Shown here: one piece after another, positions 13,666 to 28,230 of the stretch
Layout of the letters: each line of letters begins with the position of its first letter
How positions within the stretch are numbered: position 1 is the stretch's first letter
Assembly: GCA_021029095.1 (NCBI GenBank)
Contig: JAJOHG010000041.1
Span: 62,001-126,000 of the forward strand
Origin: Phellopilus nigrolimitatus
Taxonomy: Eukaryota; Basidiomycota; Agaricomycetes; Hymenochaetales; Hymenochaetaceae
Direction of reading: 5' to 3'
DNA length: 64,000 nucleotides
Made by a program: the position numbers and the translations under genes
Notes under the pieces: model-generated
Told to the model about the DNA's origin: nothing
Database searches by the model: none
The model's input: only the letters and a program-made list of their open reading frames with translations

Positions 13666-14438
13666 AGGCGGGAGCCGAGAATACAATGTCCATTAGCCAG
13701 GCACTTCAAGACAACAACAATGTGGAAAATTTCCAGGGTTCAATTTGACTCTGGAATGGTACGTACCGCACTTACCTGCAGCACGCAGTTTAGGGCCTTC
13801 AAAGAAGGGACATCGCTTTCGTGCTGCCTTGGATGCGGAGATCACGGAGGGTAATAAAACTCCCGTGTCTCAGGCAATCCGGTTTAAAAGGTATGGGAGA
13901 CACTTCGGAGGCATATGCAACCTGGTGAAAAACCCCATACCCAGGACTCAACTCCAGCCCACCACCACCACAGAACACGGTGTAAGAGTCGAAACTCAGC
14001 ACCTCAACACCAAAGCAACTTCGGGTGTCTCTGTCTGGCGGCAGTGGTGGTGGTGGTGGTGGTAGAGACTTGACTCCAGCCCACCACCACCACAGAACAC
14101 GGTGTAAGAGTCGAAACTCAGCACCTCAACACCGAAGCAACTTCAGGTGTCTCTGTCTGCTGGTGGTGGAGAGCAACGAAACGACGGGGACCAGAGCGAA
14201 AAGTGACACGTGTCGATGTGTGGAAAAAAATGAGTCATCTCATTATCGCCTTTTCGGGATGTTAAATAAGATGCGATCACAATCGTAGTGAAATAAGCAT
14301 TATCAAGTAATTTTTGTACGCTACAACATCCTCCTTCAAGAACATTCAACATTAACAAGAGCTCAACACACAGCGGAGTACGGGGCAACATCCGTGGGAC
14401 TGGTGAAACTACCTTGCACTGGCAAAGGACTCGACAAA
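13666..14438. other. MULE interior with a 123-bp tandem duplication
   Basis: 13944-14066 and about 14067-14165 are close tandem copies that include runs of CCA and TGG triplets. The last part (about 14343-14438) is the separated end of the WW-like gene fragment, which continues at 18020 on the far side of the foldback element. No other gene is seen. Confidence 0.6.
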
Positions 14439-15235
14439 CACTTCAGGTACCCCTCCTGGGGTACCCCTCTTAGGGTTAACCCCTGGGTTTGGGAATCTGC
14501 CCTAAGAGGCCCCAAAAGTGTGGTCCTTTCCCAAATCGACTTGGGAGGTCCAAAATAGGCATGGGAGACCATGGGACACCCCAATGGGTGGCCCAAATGA
14601 ACATGTCCCAGCCCAACCTGAGTACAATTTTTTCTGTGCTCTATGTAGTTTCCTATACTGTTTGCCTGGTGAACTGTATATATAGGAAAGTGTATGGTGA
14701 TCACCAATTGAAGTGATAACTGAGCATTTGACATGGAAGCACACAACAATACCAAAGCAACAGCAGCAAGCCATTTTAATATATAGCATACAGGACACCC
14801 TTAGAAACACAGCTACTGTATGCCCTTATAGTCTGCCATCCAGCTGTTCTTGAATTGAGAGCTTATGTGGCCAGTAGAATTTATTTGGGGCAACCCATGG
14901 GCAGTCTGGGTCACCCAAGACTACTTATGGGCCACCCAAATATTTTTGGGACATCCCAAATGATTTGGGTGGCCCAAATCGATTTGGGCCATTCAAGGGA
15001 ATGCTTGGGTGGCCCAATGCATTTTGGGCGACCCAAGAGCTTATCTTAATCTATAGAAGGAATTCAAAAGCTTCTCTTGATAATAGAAGCCCCAAAGCTT
15101 ATCCTTATCAGGTGAAATTCCAAAGCCTTATCCTTATCAGGTGATGCCCCAAAGCTTATCTTAATTAGATGAAGCAGCCGCTTTTGTTACTTTCTGCTTT
15201 GTACAATTCCTTACTTTGTACACTTCTGACCTCAC

Positions 15236-15610
15236 GCACTTTTGTTACTTTTGTACACTTTCACCAGTACTTTTTGTACACTTTTTGATCGCTTTTTGTA
15301 CACTTTTTGTACACTTTTTGTACACTTTTTGACCGCTTTTTGTACACTTTCTAAACAACTTTTTGTACACTTTTTATACACTTTTTGTACACTTTTTGAC
15401 CGCTTTTTGTACACTTTTTGACCGCTTTTTGTACACTTTTTATACACTTTTTGTACACTTTTTGTACACTTTTTGTACACTTTTTTAACAACTTTTTGTA
15501 CACTTTTTGTACACTTTTTGTACACTTTTTTAACAACTTTTTGTACACTTTTTGTACACTTTCTGTACACTTTTTCACCAACTTCTTGTACACTTCTTGT
15601 ACACTTTTTG
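15236..15610 (-). repeat. 11-bp tandem repeat array, left arm
   Basis: An array of TTTTTGTACAC units (plus-strand sense), about 30 copies with occasional variants such as TTTTTGACCGC and TTTTTATACAC. The exact reverse complement lies at 16840-17214. The long Lys/Cys/Val-rich ORFs through it result only from the repeat phase. Confidence 0.85.
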
Positions 15611-15626
15611 TCTGAAAATGTCTTGG

Positions 15627-15974
15627 AGTCAATCTGTGGGGTTTAGTGTTCTGTTAATAGCATAGCAAGTTCTGCTTCAATTGTGATGCCCTTATATTCG
15701 AAATGTATGCACTGATAAGCTCTACACTATGCAAAAACAAACACACAGATTGGTGCAGTATTGGTAGTGTGAGAGGCAAACAGATCCTAAAAGCCCATAG
15801 AGGTGAACTTAGATGACCTGTTTCCCTCTTGCTCTACCAATATTGCATCTATCTGGGTGTCTGTTTTGCATGCTATAGAGCATGACGGTGCACACATTTC
15901 AAATATAATATCATTGCAATCGAAGTAGAACTCGTTATGCTATCAGCAAATTAACTGAAACCCGCAGATTGACT
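15627..15974. repeat. Older diverged inverted repeat inside the foldback arm
   Basis: 15627-15783 and 15818-15974 are reverse complements at roughly three-quarters identity by eye, with a 34-bp loop. Because the whole arm is itself inverted, the same structure recurs at 16476-16823. The ~157-bp unit is therefore present four times in alternating orientation. Confidence 0.7.
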
Positions 15975-16839
15975 TGTGGTATGCCCTATTTCAGTGCAGT
16001 TTAGTGCTCTTACCTGATACTCTTTCACATATGTGGTAGAGTTACTGGACACTTTACAGGCTTTGACAATGTCATAGAGTTAATGGAGCACTGAGATTCC
16101 AGATTATGGTTTCATATAGAATTCAAAGCTACCCTTCCATTCAGTTCTGGATGTAATCATAAGATAGTACTTGTGTAAACACAGTAACTTAGTTTTCTTG
16201 GCAATTACTTTTACAATTGAATCTCAATCCTTCATGACTTCATGATCTGACAAGACTGACTTATTGAAACTCATCCTACATGTGTCTTTAAAGTCAAATA
16301 GTAGTTACTGCTAGAGATATAAACAAACAATAAGTCTCACATTGTATCATTCTAGGATGATCTAACATTATCAGAGCACATAGCCAACTTCATTCGATAC
16401 TCCAGTAACTCTACCACATATGTGAAAGAGTATCAGGTAAGAGCACTAAACTGCACTGAAATAGGGCATACCACAAGTCAATCTGCGGGTTTCAGTTAAT
16501 TTGCTGATAGCATAACGAGTTCTACTTCGATTGCAATGATATTATATTTGAAATGTGTGCACCGTCATGCTCTATAGCATGCAAAACAGACACCCAGATA
16601 GATGCAATATTGGTAGAGCAAGAGGGAAACAGGTCATCTAAGTTCACCTCTATGGGCTTTTAGGATCTGTTTGCCTCTCACACTACCAATACTGCACCAA
16701 TCTGTGTGTTTGTTTTTGCATAGTGTAGAGCTTATCAGTGCATACATTTCGAATATAAGGGCATCACAATTGAAGCAGAACTTGCTATGCTATTAACAGA
16801 ACACTAAACCCCACAGATTGACTCCAAGACATTTTCAGA

Positions 16840-17214
16840 CAAAAAGTGTACAAGAAGTGTACAAGAAGTTGGTGAAAAAGTGTACAGAAAGTGTACAAAA
16901 AGTGTACAAAAAGTTGTTAAAAAAGTGTACAAAAAGTGTACAAAAAGTGTACAAAAAGTTGTTAAAAAAGTGTACAAAAAGTGTACAAAAAGTGTACAAA
17001 AAGTGTATAAAAAGTGTACAAAAAGCGGTCAAAAAGTGTACAAAAAGCGGTCAAAAAGTGTACAAAAAGTGTATAAAAAGTGTACAAAAAGTTGTTTAGA
17101 AAGTGTACAAAAAGCGGTCAAAAAGTGTACAAAAAGTGTACAAAAAGTGTACAAAAAGCGATCAAAAAGTGTACAAAAAGTACTGGTGAAAGTGTACAAA
17201 AGTAACAAAAGTGC
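16840..17214 (+). repeat. 11-bp tandem repeat array, right arm
   Basis: Mirror image of 15236-15610, reading GTGTACAAAAA on the plus strand. Each unit carries a GTAC palindrome spaced about one helical turn from the next, so repeated sites would lie on one face of the DNA (inference). Confidence 0.85.
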
Positions 17215-18019
17215 GTGAGGTCAGAAGTGTACAAAGTAAGGAATTGTACAAAGCAGAAAGTAACAAAAGCGGCTGCTTCATCTAATTAAGATAAGCTTTG
17301 GGGCATCACCTGATAAGGATAAGGCTTTGGAATTTCACCTGATAAGGATAAGCTTTGGGGCTTCTATTATCAAGAGAAGCTTTTGAATTCCTTCTATAGA
17401 TTAAGATAAGCTCTTGGGTCGCCCAAAATGCATTGGGCCACCCAAGCATTCCCTTGAATGGCCCAAATCGATTTGGGCCACCCAAATCATTTGGGATGTC
17501 CCAAAAATATTTGGGTGGCCCATAAGTAGTCTTGGGTGACCCAGACTGCCCATGGGTTGCCCCAAATAAATTCTACTGGCCACATAAGCTCTCAATTCAA
17601 GAACAGCTGGATGGCAGACTATAAGGGCATACAGTAGCTGTGTTTCTAAGGGTGTCCTGTATGCTATATATTAAAATGGCTTGCTGCTGTTGCTTTGGTA
17701 TTGTTGTGTGCTTCCATGTCAAATGCTCAGTTATCACTTCAATTGGTGATCACCATACACTTTCCTATATATACAGTTCACCAGGCAAACAGTATAGGAA
17801 ACTACATAGAGCACAGAAAAAATTGTACTCAGGTTGGGCTGGGACATGTTCATTTGGGCCACCCATTGGGGTGTCCCATGGTCTCCCATGCCTATTTTGG
17901 ACCTCCCAAGTCGATTTGGGAAAGGACCACACTTTTGGGGCCTCTTAGGGCAGATTCCCAAACCCAGGGGTTAACCCTAAGAGGGGTACCCCAGGAGGGG
18001 TACCTGAAGTGTCGACAAA

Positions 18020-23249: not shown

Positions 23250-23870
23250 CAGTCATGTGACATAAGTTTATTCCGGTTCTCATGCCTCAATCCGACAACT
23301 TTGCCTCATATCACAACAACTGCTGATTCAATCATGCCCAAACAACTTGGAGAATGTTAACTCACTCTGTCTGATTGTCATGCTGTAGTTAAATTAGCTA
23401 ATTCTTATCTAACTCAGCCTTAAATTGCTAAGCTGTCCAACACTCTGATTTGACTGTCTGTCAGGTTCTCCAGAACTACCACAATTGAGGCCACATCAAT
23501 GACATACCCAGGAGTGTATGTCTGAACAAAATCAAGAACAGGGGTTTGCATAATTTTAAGTGGTCACTTGATGGCAACAGATACCAAACACTCATTGACA
23601 ACACCCATAACTCCAACATCAGCCTCTCTTCCCCAGCAGCCCCCAGGACTATCCACAGGGGTTAACATTGTTACTTGGTAGGGCTCATCACGAGTCCACC
23701 CGTGGGTTGACCCGGACCCGTTGGCGGGTCACCCGTGACGAAAAAACCTCGACCCGGATCCGCCTTGACCCAGACCCGTTGGGACACAGATCCACGGGTC
23801 ACCCAATTCCCACGGTTCCAGGTCACGGGTTTGATCGCGGCCCCTGCGGGTCATCTTGACATGACTTTGC

Positions 23871-25530
23871 ACGGTGCCGCTGTTCAGGCTCACCGGTGAC
23901 ACTTCCGAGAAGACTCAGGACCTCCTTCTCCTCGATGTCGCGCCGCTCTCGCTCGGTATCGAGACCGCCGGCGGTGTCATGACCGCGCTCATCAAGCGTA
24001 ACACGACTGTCCCGACGAAGAAGTCCGAAATCTTCTCGACGTACGCGGACAACCAGCCCGGTGTCCTTATCCAGGTCTTCGAGGGCGAGCGTGCGCGCAC
24101 GAAGGACAACAACCTCCTCGGCAAGTTCGAGCTTTCTGGTATCCCTCCTGCGCCGCGTGGTGTTCCTCAGGTTGAGGTCACCTTCGACATCGACGGTATC
24201 CTTAATGTATCCGCCTCGGATAAGACGACCGGAAAGTCGAACCACATCACGATCACCAACGACAAGGGTCGTCTTACGAAGGAGGAGATCGAGCGTATGG
24301 TCAGCGACGCTGAGAAGTTCGAGGGTAAGCTCATATTCAGTTCTATCGTCCATATTGAAATCTGACTATATTTTCTTTATAGCTGAGGATGAGGAAGCCG
24401 CTTCGCCCATCACTGCCAAGAACGGTATACGTGAGTGTAACGGGCTGCAGTGCAAACCTAACGACTCGAGAACGAGTCTCAGCCAGATAGACACTGAGGG
24501 ATATCGTGTGTCTCCGATCCAAAGGGGATAAACAGACGCGATGAAAACTGACGCGGAGCGAACGCCGGTCGAGGCGAGAGACAGCGAGAGCGTGAGGAGT
24601 GCCGCAGGCGCACTAAAGACTGAGAAACGAAAGCGCGAGCTAATGAACTCGGCGATGAGATACACTGACTCGGGCCGTGGAGAAAATGAACTAAATGGTC
24701 AATACTGGGAACACGAAGGGGGTGCGCAAGCTGCCCTCACTGAGGTGCAGCTCTGAGCCTAAATACAGGATCGGCTAAACTACTCGGTCGTCTACTATCT
24801 GAGGTCGATGCGCCGATCCTAACCCTGCTCCTCCCGTGATATGTCCCCTACTTCTTCTGCGCCGTCGGCGAAGCCGAAGCGAGGGTTCGTACCGCGAGGT
24901 TTCTTCGGCTATCTGAACTGACCGAGGCGAGCTCCGAGATCGAGCGGGTATGGATCGGCTGCCGAGCGACACTCGTCATGTGCTGTGACTGATAGATCGC
25001 GAGCCGTTTCGGACGCAAGTAGGGACAGCCGAGGGTTCTCGGCGTCGAAGAGTCGCCGAGGGCCGAGTTCGTCCCTGATCCTCTGGGCGAGAGTCCGGCG
25101 GGCTGCTCCACTTGTACGGCAGCGCCAGCGAGGGGGCTGTCTGTACAACGGCCTCGAGTCCTATGCGTAAAACCTGCGCAACTCGATCATGGATGAGAAG
25201 GCGAAGGACAAGTTCGACGCGGACGACAAGACGCGCCTCGAGACTGCAGTGAACGAGGCAATTTCGTGGCTCGACAACTCGCAGGAGGCGTCGAAGGAGG
25301 AGTACGAGAAGAAGCAGAAGGAGCTCGAAGGCATCGCGGGCCCGATCATGCAGAAGTTCTACCAATCTGCAGGTGCGGGTGGAGTGCCTGGCGCGGACGG
25401 CTTCCCGGGTGCGGGCGGATTCCTTGGTGGCCTGGGGGCTCCTGGCGGCTTCCCAGGAGCCTGTGGCGCTCCGGACGCGTCAGAGGATGGTCCCAGTGTC
25501 GAGGGAGGTCGACTTATTGTGATGCGGACG
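23871..25530 (+). pseudogene. Captured cytosolic Hsp70 gene fragment (C-terminal half)
   Basis: The plus strand reads [20 protein letters not shown] and continues through the substrate-binding domain, ending [18 protein letters not shown] (exon end 24324). An intron follows (24325-24382), then AEDEEAASPITAKNG. The lid resumes at 25152 with LESYA, a stop, and [20 protein letters not shown]. The Gly/Pro-rich tail ends in a frame-shifted version of the cytosolic EEVD signature near 25495-25515. Defects: a small deletion near 23890 before the GDTSEK codons, the in-frame stop near 25168, the tail frameshift, and a ~720-bp insertion (24426-25146). The ATPase domain is absent. Confidence 0.88.
24426..25146. 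other. Insertion inside the Hsp70 fragment, flanked by AACGG
   Basis: The coding sequence breaks exactly between the Asn-Gly and Leu codons. AACGG is present on both sides (24421-24425 and 25147-25151), so a 721-bp block has been added with a 5-bp direct repeat. The block has no obvious inverted ends and no recognisable gene. It could be a small insertion or a modified intron. Confidence 0.45.
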
Positions 25531-25768
25531 AACCGCATCCGTCTACCTATTTTCCTCATCAATTCAATAGCGTCCCCGGCCCAGCAACTACCCAGGTTGG
25601 CAGGGATATCTGTTCATCGGTGAGTGCATCGCTATTCTCCCTAAAGTGCGCCGCTGAACGATAACGTCGACGCGTCCGACAGAAAGTGCCGCAGTGGGAT
25701 GTGCCAGGACAAGCTCCGGGCGCCGCGCAACTAGCTCCCCCGATGCGAGTACGACGACAATGATGATG

Positions 25769-26557
25769 GTGCGGGCAGCCTTACACGCCAGCTCGCGGAG
25801 ACAGCGGTCGGTGTCCGCAAGATGAGCAAGCAACTCGGTTAGTCATATTCTTTGGCTTGGCGATCTCGTCATTTGGTTGCAGAGGGTGTGCTACGGTGCG
25901 GTTTCTTTCCTCCATACACTATTGTGTTCTCTTTTCTGGTTCGAGTACTTACTGATCAATGTATCCTGCAGGCCGCGCTCGCGTGCGCTCGAACATCCAA
26001 AATGTGCTCATCATCACCCAGGTGCGGGACAACAGCCTCATCAAGCTCACGCACGAGCTCGCGCTCTACCTGATGCAGAAGCCGCGCTACGGCGGGCGCG
26101 GGCTCGTCGTGTACGTCGACAACCAGCTGTGCTACAGCAAGCGCTTCGACGCGGCCGGCATCGAGCACGAGCACCCCGAGCTCTTTGTGCCCTTCCCGCG
26201 GCGCCGGAGCTCGAGCAGCAACTCGCTCGCGTCGATGGCGAACGGCGCCGGCAACGGCAACGATGCGGAGTTTCAGACGAACCCCGAGGGCCAGCTGCGC
26301 TACTGGACGAGCGAGATGTGCAACAAGAGCCCGCACCTCCTCGACTTTGTCATCACTGTGCGTGTCTTCTTACCCCCCACGCTTCGCGTCCGGCTGGCTG
26401 ACACCCCGGCTGTAATAGCTCGGCGGCGACGGCACTGTGCTCTTCACGTCGTGGCTCTTCCAGCACATCATGCCGCCTGTGCTGCAGTTCGCGCTCGGCT
26501 CGCTCGGCTTCCTCACGAACTTCGACTTCGCGGACCACCGCGCGGTGATGGCCGCGC
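25769..26557 (+). pseudogene. Captured NAD kinase gene fragment
   Basis: Three exons on the plus strand. The first (ends 25837) reads LTRQLAETAVGVRKMSKQLG. After a 134-nt intron the second (25972-26357) reads RARVRSNIQNVLII and then SLIKLTHELALYLM. After a 61-nt intron the third (from 26419) reads LGGDGTVLFTSWLF, the GGDGT nucleotide-binding motif of ATP-NAD kinases, and then FALGSLGFLTNFDF. The intact enzyme phosphorylates NAD to NADP. Here the sequence ends shortly after LTNFDF and runs into SEC24 sequence, so the NAD-binding C-terminal half is missing. Introns are retained. Confidence 0.85.
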
Positions 26558-26639
26558 TTCACTCAAAACGGCGGCAGTATGCAGCAGGCGCGACGCAGGC
26601 ATACTACGGCGGTGCGGATGGTTATGACGCGGATACAGC

Positions 26640-27241
26640 GCCAGGATGCCGCCTGCGCCAGGTGTGGTGCCGGGCACGCAACCTGCTCCAGGTGGGCAAC
26701 TCTTCACGCTCAGCCTTGTCGGCGAGAGCCAGTTTGCGGGGCGGCAGACTCAGCAGTCGTTCCAGTCCGCCACACTTGAACACATCAACGCACCGGGCTT
26801 CGGTAGCGGCGCACCCGTGCATCCACCTGTGCAGCCGGGATACCAGCGGAAGATGGGCATGATGACAGACCAGTTCTCGCAGATGGGGCTCGGAGGCAGG
26901 CAAAAGCCACACGTGCTGTATACCACAAAGCTACTGATGGTCCCGCCTGACCCGCACGAACTGTACGCGCTGCCTCCTGAGTTCCACATACTGCCGAATG
27001 CGTGCATCTCACCATTGCCGCACGCGAATGCGGACCCATCTTACCAGCGCTGCACAATCAATGCAGTTCCGACGACCCTCGCGCTGCTCGACAAATCCAA
27101 ACTACCTCTTGGACTCGTCCTCACGCCGTGCCGCTCACTCAAGGAGGGTGCTATTCCGGTCCCACTCGTCACCGACACTGTCATTGTGTGCTGCCGCTAC
27201 TGCAGGACATCGTTTGTGTAGTTCATTGATGGTGGCAACCA
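26640..27241 (+). pseudogene. SEC24: Captured SEC24 (COPII coat) gene fragment
   Basis: The plus strand from about 26646 reads a Pro/Gly-rich N-terminal region followed by conserved SEC24 sequence: TTKLLMVPPDPHELYALPPE, PNACISPLPHANADPSYQR, LALLDKSKLPLGLVLTPCRS and VPLVTDTVIVCCRYCRTSFV. A stop codon (27219-27221) follows, then FIDGGNQW in the same frame. This corresponds to the beginning of the SEC24 zinc-finger domain. Trunk, gelsolin-like and cargo-binding regions are absent. It joins the NAD kinase fragment without a spacer. Confidence 0.87.
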
Positions 27242-27480
27242 ATGGTACTGATGTACATACCTACATACACACAAGATATAATATTGCTACTCTATCCTTG
27301 AAAACCTGTGTGTACTACCCGCAGGTTTTCAAAAAACACAATTTCTCAACCCGGACCCGTGACAATCCGTTTCCCACGGATCACCCGTCAACGGGTGATC
27401 TGTGAATACGGATCAGCAGTCCGGGTTGAATCACGAGTCTCCACGGGTATCAAGGACTCGTGATGAGCCCTATTACTTGG

Positions 27481-28230
27481 GCATATATTCACACTATGCA
27501 TGCAAAAAACCCACCCTGAGTGACAAGCATAAAAAGAAATGGCTTGCTCAAATAACCACAATTTTACCCCATGGAAAAGAGGAATGGCACAGAGTCATCT
27601 GGACAGTAATATCACTGTAAATCTTTGGAAGAGCTACAGGATCCCTCTAGTATGGAAACACTTCAAGGAAGAGCTTGAAAAGAAGTGCCTGGCAGCTACT
27701 GTTAGGTCAAAAATGTCAAGAGCTATGATTTGAGGGTGCATTGCATATAACAAGCAGGCCCACTCATTTTTATGCCTAAGGATAGCCAAAAGAGCAATGG
27801 TTATGTGATGTTGATCATAACAGGATCCCTCTGGGGCATTTATATGTAATTTTATGAGGAAATGTGGCTTGTAAAGGCCATGGGAGATGAAGCATCAAAT
27901 CATAGATTCAATGCAGGGAAAACAATCAGGGACAAAAATTTACTGGAGACATTTCCCCACCCAGCTCAATTAGTAGACATTAACCCCAGTGAAAATCTTT
28001 GGTATCTGACAAAAATCCCAACCAGAAAAAGACCAGAAACATTCCAGAACAAGAAAGAATTGAAGAGGGCACTTTTGGAGGAATGCAAAAAGATTGACAC
28101 TAAAATAATTAATTCTCTTACTTTTAGCATGCCTAAACATGTGGAGCAGATAATAGAGGTCAAAGGAGGAACCACCAAGTGTTGGATTGATAATTTATTT
28201 TGTATTTGTGGAGGAATGAAGCAAATAAAT
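27481..28230 (+). pseudogene. Degenerate Tc1/mariner transposase (element #2, 3' part)
   Basis: The plus strand reads fragments of the DDE domain, including INPSENLWYLTKIPTR then ELKRALLEECKKIDTKI then MPKHVEQIIEVKGGTTK. 'NP.ENLW' is the conserved Tc1 signature. The 5' part lies at about 23440-23670, before the nested insertion. Stops and frame changes show it is inactive. Confidence 0.8.

Follow-up and report, generated by a model that had tools for sequence, protein, structure and literature searches.

A transposon with captured pieces of three host genes, one nested in another, in Phellopilus nigrolimitatus, probably of the hAT superfamily

The DNA studied here (the window) is a stretch of 64,000 nucleotides from the basidiomycete Phellopilus nigrolimitatus. 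It lies on contig JAJOHG010000041.1 (positions 62,001 to 126,000; C346 in our numbering of contigs) of a draft genome assembly of 56.4 Mb and 635 contigs (GCA_021029095.1). Between positions 23679 and 27472 of the window, two transposon ends enclose the C-terminal half of an Hsp70, part of a NAD kinase and the 5′ end of a SEC24 gene, all in one orientation (plus strand). We can propose with good confidence that this element is a non-autonomous DNA transposon that captures genes, most likely a member of the hAT superfamily. Its features, in window positions, are the following:

23671..23678, no strand: target-site duplication, left copy, TTACTTGG; present as a single copy in the empty site
23679..23697, plus: left terminal inverted repeat of 19 bp, TAGGGCTCATCACGAGTCC
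23679..23869, plus: transposon-derived left end with subterminal CCCGTG/ACCCGG repeats, resembling a resident hAT end
23870..24425, plus: Hsp70 fragment, first part, with an intron at 24325-24382 (PF00012; 97.5% identical without gaps to the parent on C555)
24426..25146, no strand: unrelated insertion of 721 bp splitting the Hsp70 fragment, flanked by AACGG and missing from the sibling copy on C290
25147..25520, plus: Hsp70 fragment, second part, reaching the 3′ end of the gene, with one in-frame stop
25535..25742, plus: SEC24 fragment, 5′ part, with upstream sequence and the first coding part; the start ATG reads ATA
25746..26551, plus: NAD kinase fragment with introns at 25838-25971 and 26358-26418, lying within the SEC24 fragment
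26552..27245 (end approximate), plus: SEC24 fragment, continuation 3′ of the NAD kinase piece
27249..27472, plus: transposon-derived right end of 224 bp, found at full length also in the element on C1, which has other cargo, and over 177 bases in that on C434
27454..27472, minus: right terminal inverted repeat of 19 bp, the perfect reverse complement of the left one
27473..27480, no strand: target-site duplication, right copy, TTACTTGG, identical to the left copy

A sequence-only reading of the window had described a perfect 19-bp terminal inverted repeat, an 8-bp duplication and no transposase. The letters of the ends and the flanks agree with this description, and a six-frame Pfam search found no transposase domain within 23679-27472. 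The only Pfam match on the minus strand of the element, NAD-GH, lies antisense to Hsp70, where we take it to be spurious. The inverted ends are not a product of chance, since their 16-bp core matches 83 places in the genome with at most one mismatch, against 0 for a reversed control, and since perfect arms of at least 14 bp with equal 8-bp flanks were absent (0 pairs) from 20 block-shuffled windows. In the window itself, the same search returned 15 pairs, 14 of them within one long palindrome and the other being the element. At the left end, the first 122-174 bases are common to elements with other cargo, and the stretch that adjoins Hsp70 is common to Hsp70-carrying elements only.

The three gene pieces could be traced to host genes, as had been suggested. 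In the element, Pfam recognises HSP70 (E 5e-53, profile 379-518) and NAD_kinase (E 2e-10, profile 79-125) above the cut-offs; a second HSP70 stretch (profile 532-599) stays below its cut-off with 17 bits vs 20.6. The SEC24 piece has no Pfam match and was assigned by alignment to the host gene on C57, a locus with zf-Sec23_Sec24, trunk and beta-sandwich domains. The Hsp70 parent lies at about C555:614729-616900, its 3′ part carrying an apparent frameshift in this assembly, and the NAD kinase parent is found on both C177 and C112, in two copies that are 97.7% alike and are probably alleles. Both the nature of the three fragments and their common orientation, as proposed from the sequence, were thus confirmed by Pfam and by alignment to the parents. 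Their introns were indeed retained, one in Hsp70 and two in NAD kinase, each with GT and AG; the source of the capture was therefore DNA. We also considered a 78-bp gap in the SEC24 piece as an excised intron and rejected it, as the edges of the gap do not fit a splice. By contrast, the idea that the pieces are joined end to end does not hold: the NAD kinase piece lies inside SEC24, which according to the junction alignment lost only a few bases at the insertion point, and Hsp70 is split by the 721-bp insertion. About 14 bp of filler separate the Hsp70 and SEC24 pieces.

An empty site and a second copy show that the element moved with its cargo. A query made of 185 bases of left flank and 148 bases of right flank, with the 8-bp duplication present once, matches 26 places in the genome. 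Of these, 20 run across the junction, 4 match on one side only and 2 correspond to the flanks of the element in the window. The best of them, at C555:407996-408326, matches 331 letters with 100% identity; the insertion was thus clean, into a repeat of which empty copies still exist. At C290:50642-53700 lies a second full copy with the same ends, its own duplication ATACAGAT and the gene pieces in the same order, and hence the pieces of the three genes travelled together. This copy is devoid of the 721 bp found at 24426-25146 of the window copy; as that stretch is also flanked by AACGG, it is a later insertion in the C346 copy. A third copy (C619:80260-82228) is truncated and has internal losses, but the order of its pieces is the same; its right end was not found within the sequence examined. 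These observations bear on the view that the block is a chimeric pseudogene born from ordinary rearrangement, with transposon ends coming to flank it later. Such an origin would suit fragments that derive from host genes and hold introns and one in-frame stop. It is nevertheless contradicted by the exact empty site and by the second copy, which has a target duplication of its own, and the cargo junctions are common to elements at different sites, so that we regard it as hardly credible.

The 721-bp insertion belongs to a family that begins with TATACGTGAG and ends with CTGTCTGTAC(A), with no clear inverted ends and, in the window, a flanking duplication of about 5 bp. Two copies stand head to head at C224:310950-312226, and at C35:14213-15335 the family occurs inside another end of the element's kind.

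The ends were also searched for siblings with other cargo, and such siblings exist; the 83 core matches exclude that no other element shares these ends. Fifteen of these matches belong to 8 complete gene-carrying elements, which were chosen because both ends lie close together, 10 form five pairs 377 bp apart, and 58 are unpaired. Identical 8-bp flanks are present in 8/8 of the gene-carrying elements with both ends and in 2/2 short elements (456 and 375 bp); in C113 and C278, one end has one mismatch to the other. The cargo is diverse. The element on C179 holds a PBD domain above the Pfam cut-off, a kinase match below it (28.2 bits vs 31.7) and a SEC24 piece from a different part of that gene, C1 holds UCH, and C278 holds Hsp70 together with the SEC24 zinc finger and trunk, all above the cut-offs. 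In C434, the WD40-like matches all remain below the cut-offs, and we take the sequence to be coatomer beta′-like; C605 carries a second copy of this element at another site, with an insertion. The cargo of C113 has no Pfam match, and its SEC24 was identified by DNA alignment. Outside the C434 and C605 copies, matches to the C434 cargo reach 91%, and those to the C179 cargo elsewhere in the genome reach 94%; they are candidates for parents or further elements. Because the siblings carry uninterrupted SEC24 or other gene pieces, the elements sharing these 19-bp ends are a gene-capturing family.

Several further groups of ends were observed in the genome. The five pairs of ends at a distance of exactly 377 bp (C90:214794, C112:1810082, C446:191514, C624:96932 and C630:18825, seen as coordinates only) probably represent short members of the family described above. 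An end with the flank AGCTCCAC is common to nine places (C38:8517, C518:8637, C533:183883, C567:37573, C605:47677, C13:196578, C13:349177, C135:395834 and C335:123950, the flank being present as its complement in C335). In 8/9 of them, an Hsp70 piece lies within 3 kb of the end, its first part 84-85% like that of the window, and in C135 the piece is about 15 kb away; these nine places are probably an element within a larger repeat. SEC24 pieces that are 76-78% like the window's and run into the transposon right end occur in C154, C235, C334, C445, C446, C468 and C552. In C235, C445 and C446 the end is a variant that resembles TAGGGCTCACCATGAGTCC; its flank is TGCTCCAA in the first two and differs from this by one base in C446.

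Elements with and without a given piece coexist in this genome, which makes the order of capture readable and the mechanism (breakpoints, filler, target loss) directly testable. The site where NAD kinase is inserted is uninterrupted in C113, C36, C111, C46 and the SEC24 gene itself. C113 is a complete element with the target duplication CATGCAAT; in C111 a left end lies 1.6 kb away; in C36 the right end region is present and no intact end was seen; in C46 no ends were seen. The junction between SEC24 and the right end is common to C346, C290, C113 and C36 and, together with the uninterrupted site, indicates that SEC24 was captured before NAD kinase. Likewise, the junction between the left end and Hsp70 is common to C346, C290, C619 and C278. 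Identity to the parents, computed without gaps, decreases from the first part of Hsp70 (97.5%) to NAD kinase (92.0% with C177, 92.3% with C112) and SEC24 (88.2%). This gradient fits a capture of Hsp70 in last position; it is a weak clock, in view of three observations. The second part of Hsp70 is less parent-like (90.7% with gaps; 94.4% of 160 bases), C619 and C278 are only 92.9% and 92.4% identical to the Hsp70 parent though they have the same Hsp70 junction, and the SEC24 piece of C36 is nearer to the parent gene (90.6%) than to the window copy (86.2%). For C36, shared ancestry therefore rests on the common junction.

Altogether, we think it likely, if less so than the transposon nature of the element, that a Pack-hAT family of the plant style assembles chimaeras of several genes in this fungus through successive, nested captures, the earlier cargo receiving the next piece and the intermediates surviving in the same genome. 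The ancestor would have lost its own coding part, leaving about 170-190 bp at the left and 224 bp at the right, and the space between them would have been filled by pieces of host genes copied from DNA, possibly through faulty gap repair with template switching. A SEC24 5′ piece would have come first; a NAD kinase piece of 0.8 kb would then have been copied into it with the loss of a few bases, and the Hsp70 3′ piece, gained beside the left end, may have been added before or after NAD kinase. A hAT transposase encoded elsewhere in the genome would recognise the ends in trans and would have carried the complete element to two sites or more.

To which superfamily do these ends belong? Mutator-like elements (Pack-MULEs) duplicate about 9-11 bp of their target and mostly have long inverted ends, and Helitrons have neither inverted ends nor target duplications. 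Both identities were rejected, since the element has 19-bp inverted ends and an 8-bp duplication. The latter, found in 10/10 elements with both ends, is as expected for hAT; it is not specific to hAT because other superfamilies make it too. PF05699 marks 7 hAT places in the genome, at least one of them with internal stops. One resident hAT family ends with TAGGGCTCCGCAACG and shares the tip TAGGGCTC with the element. In another, end positions 18-84 align collinearly with positions 30-93 of the left end of the element, at a near-equal distance from the tip. For the copy on C217, where the alignment falls on the 3′ end of an element with PF05699, the alignment score of 34 was reached by 0/400 shuffles, and for the copy on C555 the score of 30 was reached by 3/400. 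Membership of hAT is therefore probable, because the ends resemble those of transposase-coding hAT elements of the same genome, clearly so for the left end only. As for the name Pack-hAT given in the sequence-only reading, its Pack-type part is well founded on the siblings with other cargo, the empty site and the second copy, and its hAT part is only probable, from the similarity of the ends.

Several results weigh against this assignment. The right end is little like hAT ends (13, 64, 235 and 245 of 400 shuffles reach its scores) and the left end is not like the family ending with TAGGGCTCCGCAACG (132 and 146 of 400). An autonomous hAT with the same ends, which the sequence-only reading had proposed to look for, was not found: among the 7 PF05699 places and 6 protein matches obtained with a degenerate hAT as query, none places a hAT transposase near the listed ends, in a draft of 635 contigs where 58/83 ends are unpaired. 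Moreover, KDZ transposons are abundant, with 73 stretches vs the 7 hAT places, and by their coordinates some lie 6-14 kb from facing unpaired ends in C146, C168 and C417. In view of these numbers, and since target duplications of 8 bp are also made by Zisupton and by one Dileera family (PMC12730594), the element might instead be a gene-capturing KDZ member, of Zisupton or Dileera type, moved by a resident KDZ transposase. We consider this unlikely. Indeed, a KDZ search found no KDZ transposase within any of the 8 complete gene-carrying elements, most end matches being unpaired as noted. Two of the three facing ends adjoin gene pieces, of SEC24 in C146 and like the C179 cargo in C417, and thus look like gene-carrying elements themselves. 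Finally, the tips begin with TAGGGCTC like a resident hAT, and the alignment with a hAT end of this genome covers the left subterminal region. A hAT origin remains the preferred reading.

A stretch of 9.9 kb at C605:4492-14351 was examined as an autonomous partner and rejected. It consists of a 2.2-kb element of the C434 type and a 7.6-kb insertion whose open reading frames we take to be those of a Gypsy retrotransposon.

The copies appear to have decayed in a particular way. Over 3,059 aligned bases, C346 and C290 differ at 49 positions, of which 38 are CpG transitions (16 and 22 per copy) by the stricter count used here and 40 by a looser one. A similar share is seen between C434 and C605 (10 of 15 differences) and in other recent repeat pairs (14/18 for C38/C567, 5/6 for a hAT pair); the values are 62/297 in an older hAT pair and 2/6 in the 721-bp insertion. 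In the C177/C112 pair of probable NAD kinase alleles, CpG transitions account for 21/62 differences (Fisher p about 8e-6 vs 38/49). The simplest reading is that these changes reflect methylation and deamination of transposon DNA, which suggests that the element may be silenced by cytosine methylation. The sequence-only reading had envisaged exon shuffling or small RNAs against essential genes; the pattern of CpG changes rather speaks for silencing. The CpG observed/expected ratio is 1.12-1.31 in the parents and 1.12-1.13 in the element copies; being undepleted in both, it neither shows that the parents were hit nor marks the copies.

Could the fused pieces instead be expressed and kept as a new protein, that is, as a domesticated chimeric gene? 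The splice sites of the three introns are intact, and eight open reading frames of at least 100 amino acids with an ATG start overlap the element, the longest (222 amino acids) running across the NAD kinase/SEC24 junction and another (191 amino acids) lying in SEC24. The in-frame stop of Hsp70, present in both the C346 and C290 copies, and the loss of the SEC24 start codon from the window copy argue against a functional chimaeric protein, and the excess of CpG transitions over the NAD kinase pair is as expected for silenced transposons. We hold domestication to be very improbable. The ratios of nonsynonymous to synonymous change (dN/dS) between fragments and parents are 0.03-0.08 for Hsp70, 0.36-0.38 for SEC24 and 0.05-1.33, by exon, for NAD kinase, and were not taken as evidence of selection, because the captured allele may not be the one used as parent and because CpG decay tends to fall on synonymous third positions.

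The element shows what characterises Pack-TYPE transposons: inverted ends with a target duplication, no transposase, parents elsewhere and mobility with its cargo. Pack-TYPE transposons, including Pack-hAT, are described in plants (PMC8903248). They too are non-autonomous, with inverted ends and captured coding DNA; our element differs in residing in a fungus (the string “fung” is absent from the main text of that article) and in holding three genes, one of them nested. A three-gene, hAT-like capture in a basidiomycete had been presented as notable. This part of the claim has to be narrowed, since fungal hAT elements with captured genes are already published. In the ascomycete Pseudocercospora fijiensis and its relatives, a hAT with 20-bp ends and an 8-bp duplication captured the housekeeping gene histone H3, and its copies were mutated by the host, which is comparable to our case (PMC6710886). 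However, its full-length elements have the hAT domain, one gene type, an intronless capture from a transcript or retrocopy and CpA decay, whereas the P. nigrolimitatus element has no transposase, three genes, introns and CpG decay. Pyrenophora tritici-repentis offers another fungal hAT transduplication, of a histone H3-like gene, with long, autonomous-looking and short, non-autonomous forms (PMC3538342). In this ascomycete, the short form keeps the hAT dimerisation domain; the captured gene is of one type, besides an open reading frame of unknown function. Finally, Helitrons of Pleurotus ostreatus are also mushroom transposons with captured gene fragments (PMC4289320), but they are rolling-circle elements, unlike the present one with its inverted ends and 8-bp duplication.

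The new part, which stands, is that a hAT-like family without transposase captured several genes in steps, one within another. We found no fungal hAT without transposase carrying several genes in the open-access literature searched, which is limited in scope and no proof. Gene-fragment capture by inverted-repeat elements has been studied mostly in plants, and the published fungal hAT cases compared here concern elements with a histone H3-like gene in which the hAT transposase is wholly or partly preserved. The element illustrates how patchwork copies of genes can arise stepwise through mobile elements. Furthermore, pieces of housekeeping genes sit here in DNA that is seemingly mutated like transposon DNA, raising the question of effects on the parents.

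Around the element, no Pfam match was found in 3 kb of either flank, and no Rfam match in window positions 23400-27800. Elsewhere in the window, positions 14438-18012 form a perfect inverted repeat with arms of 1,612 nt, a spacer of 351 nt and more repeats within the arms, which may represent a fold-back element or an artefact of the assembly.

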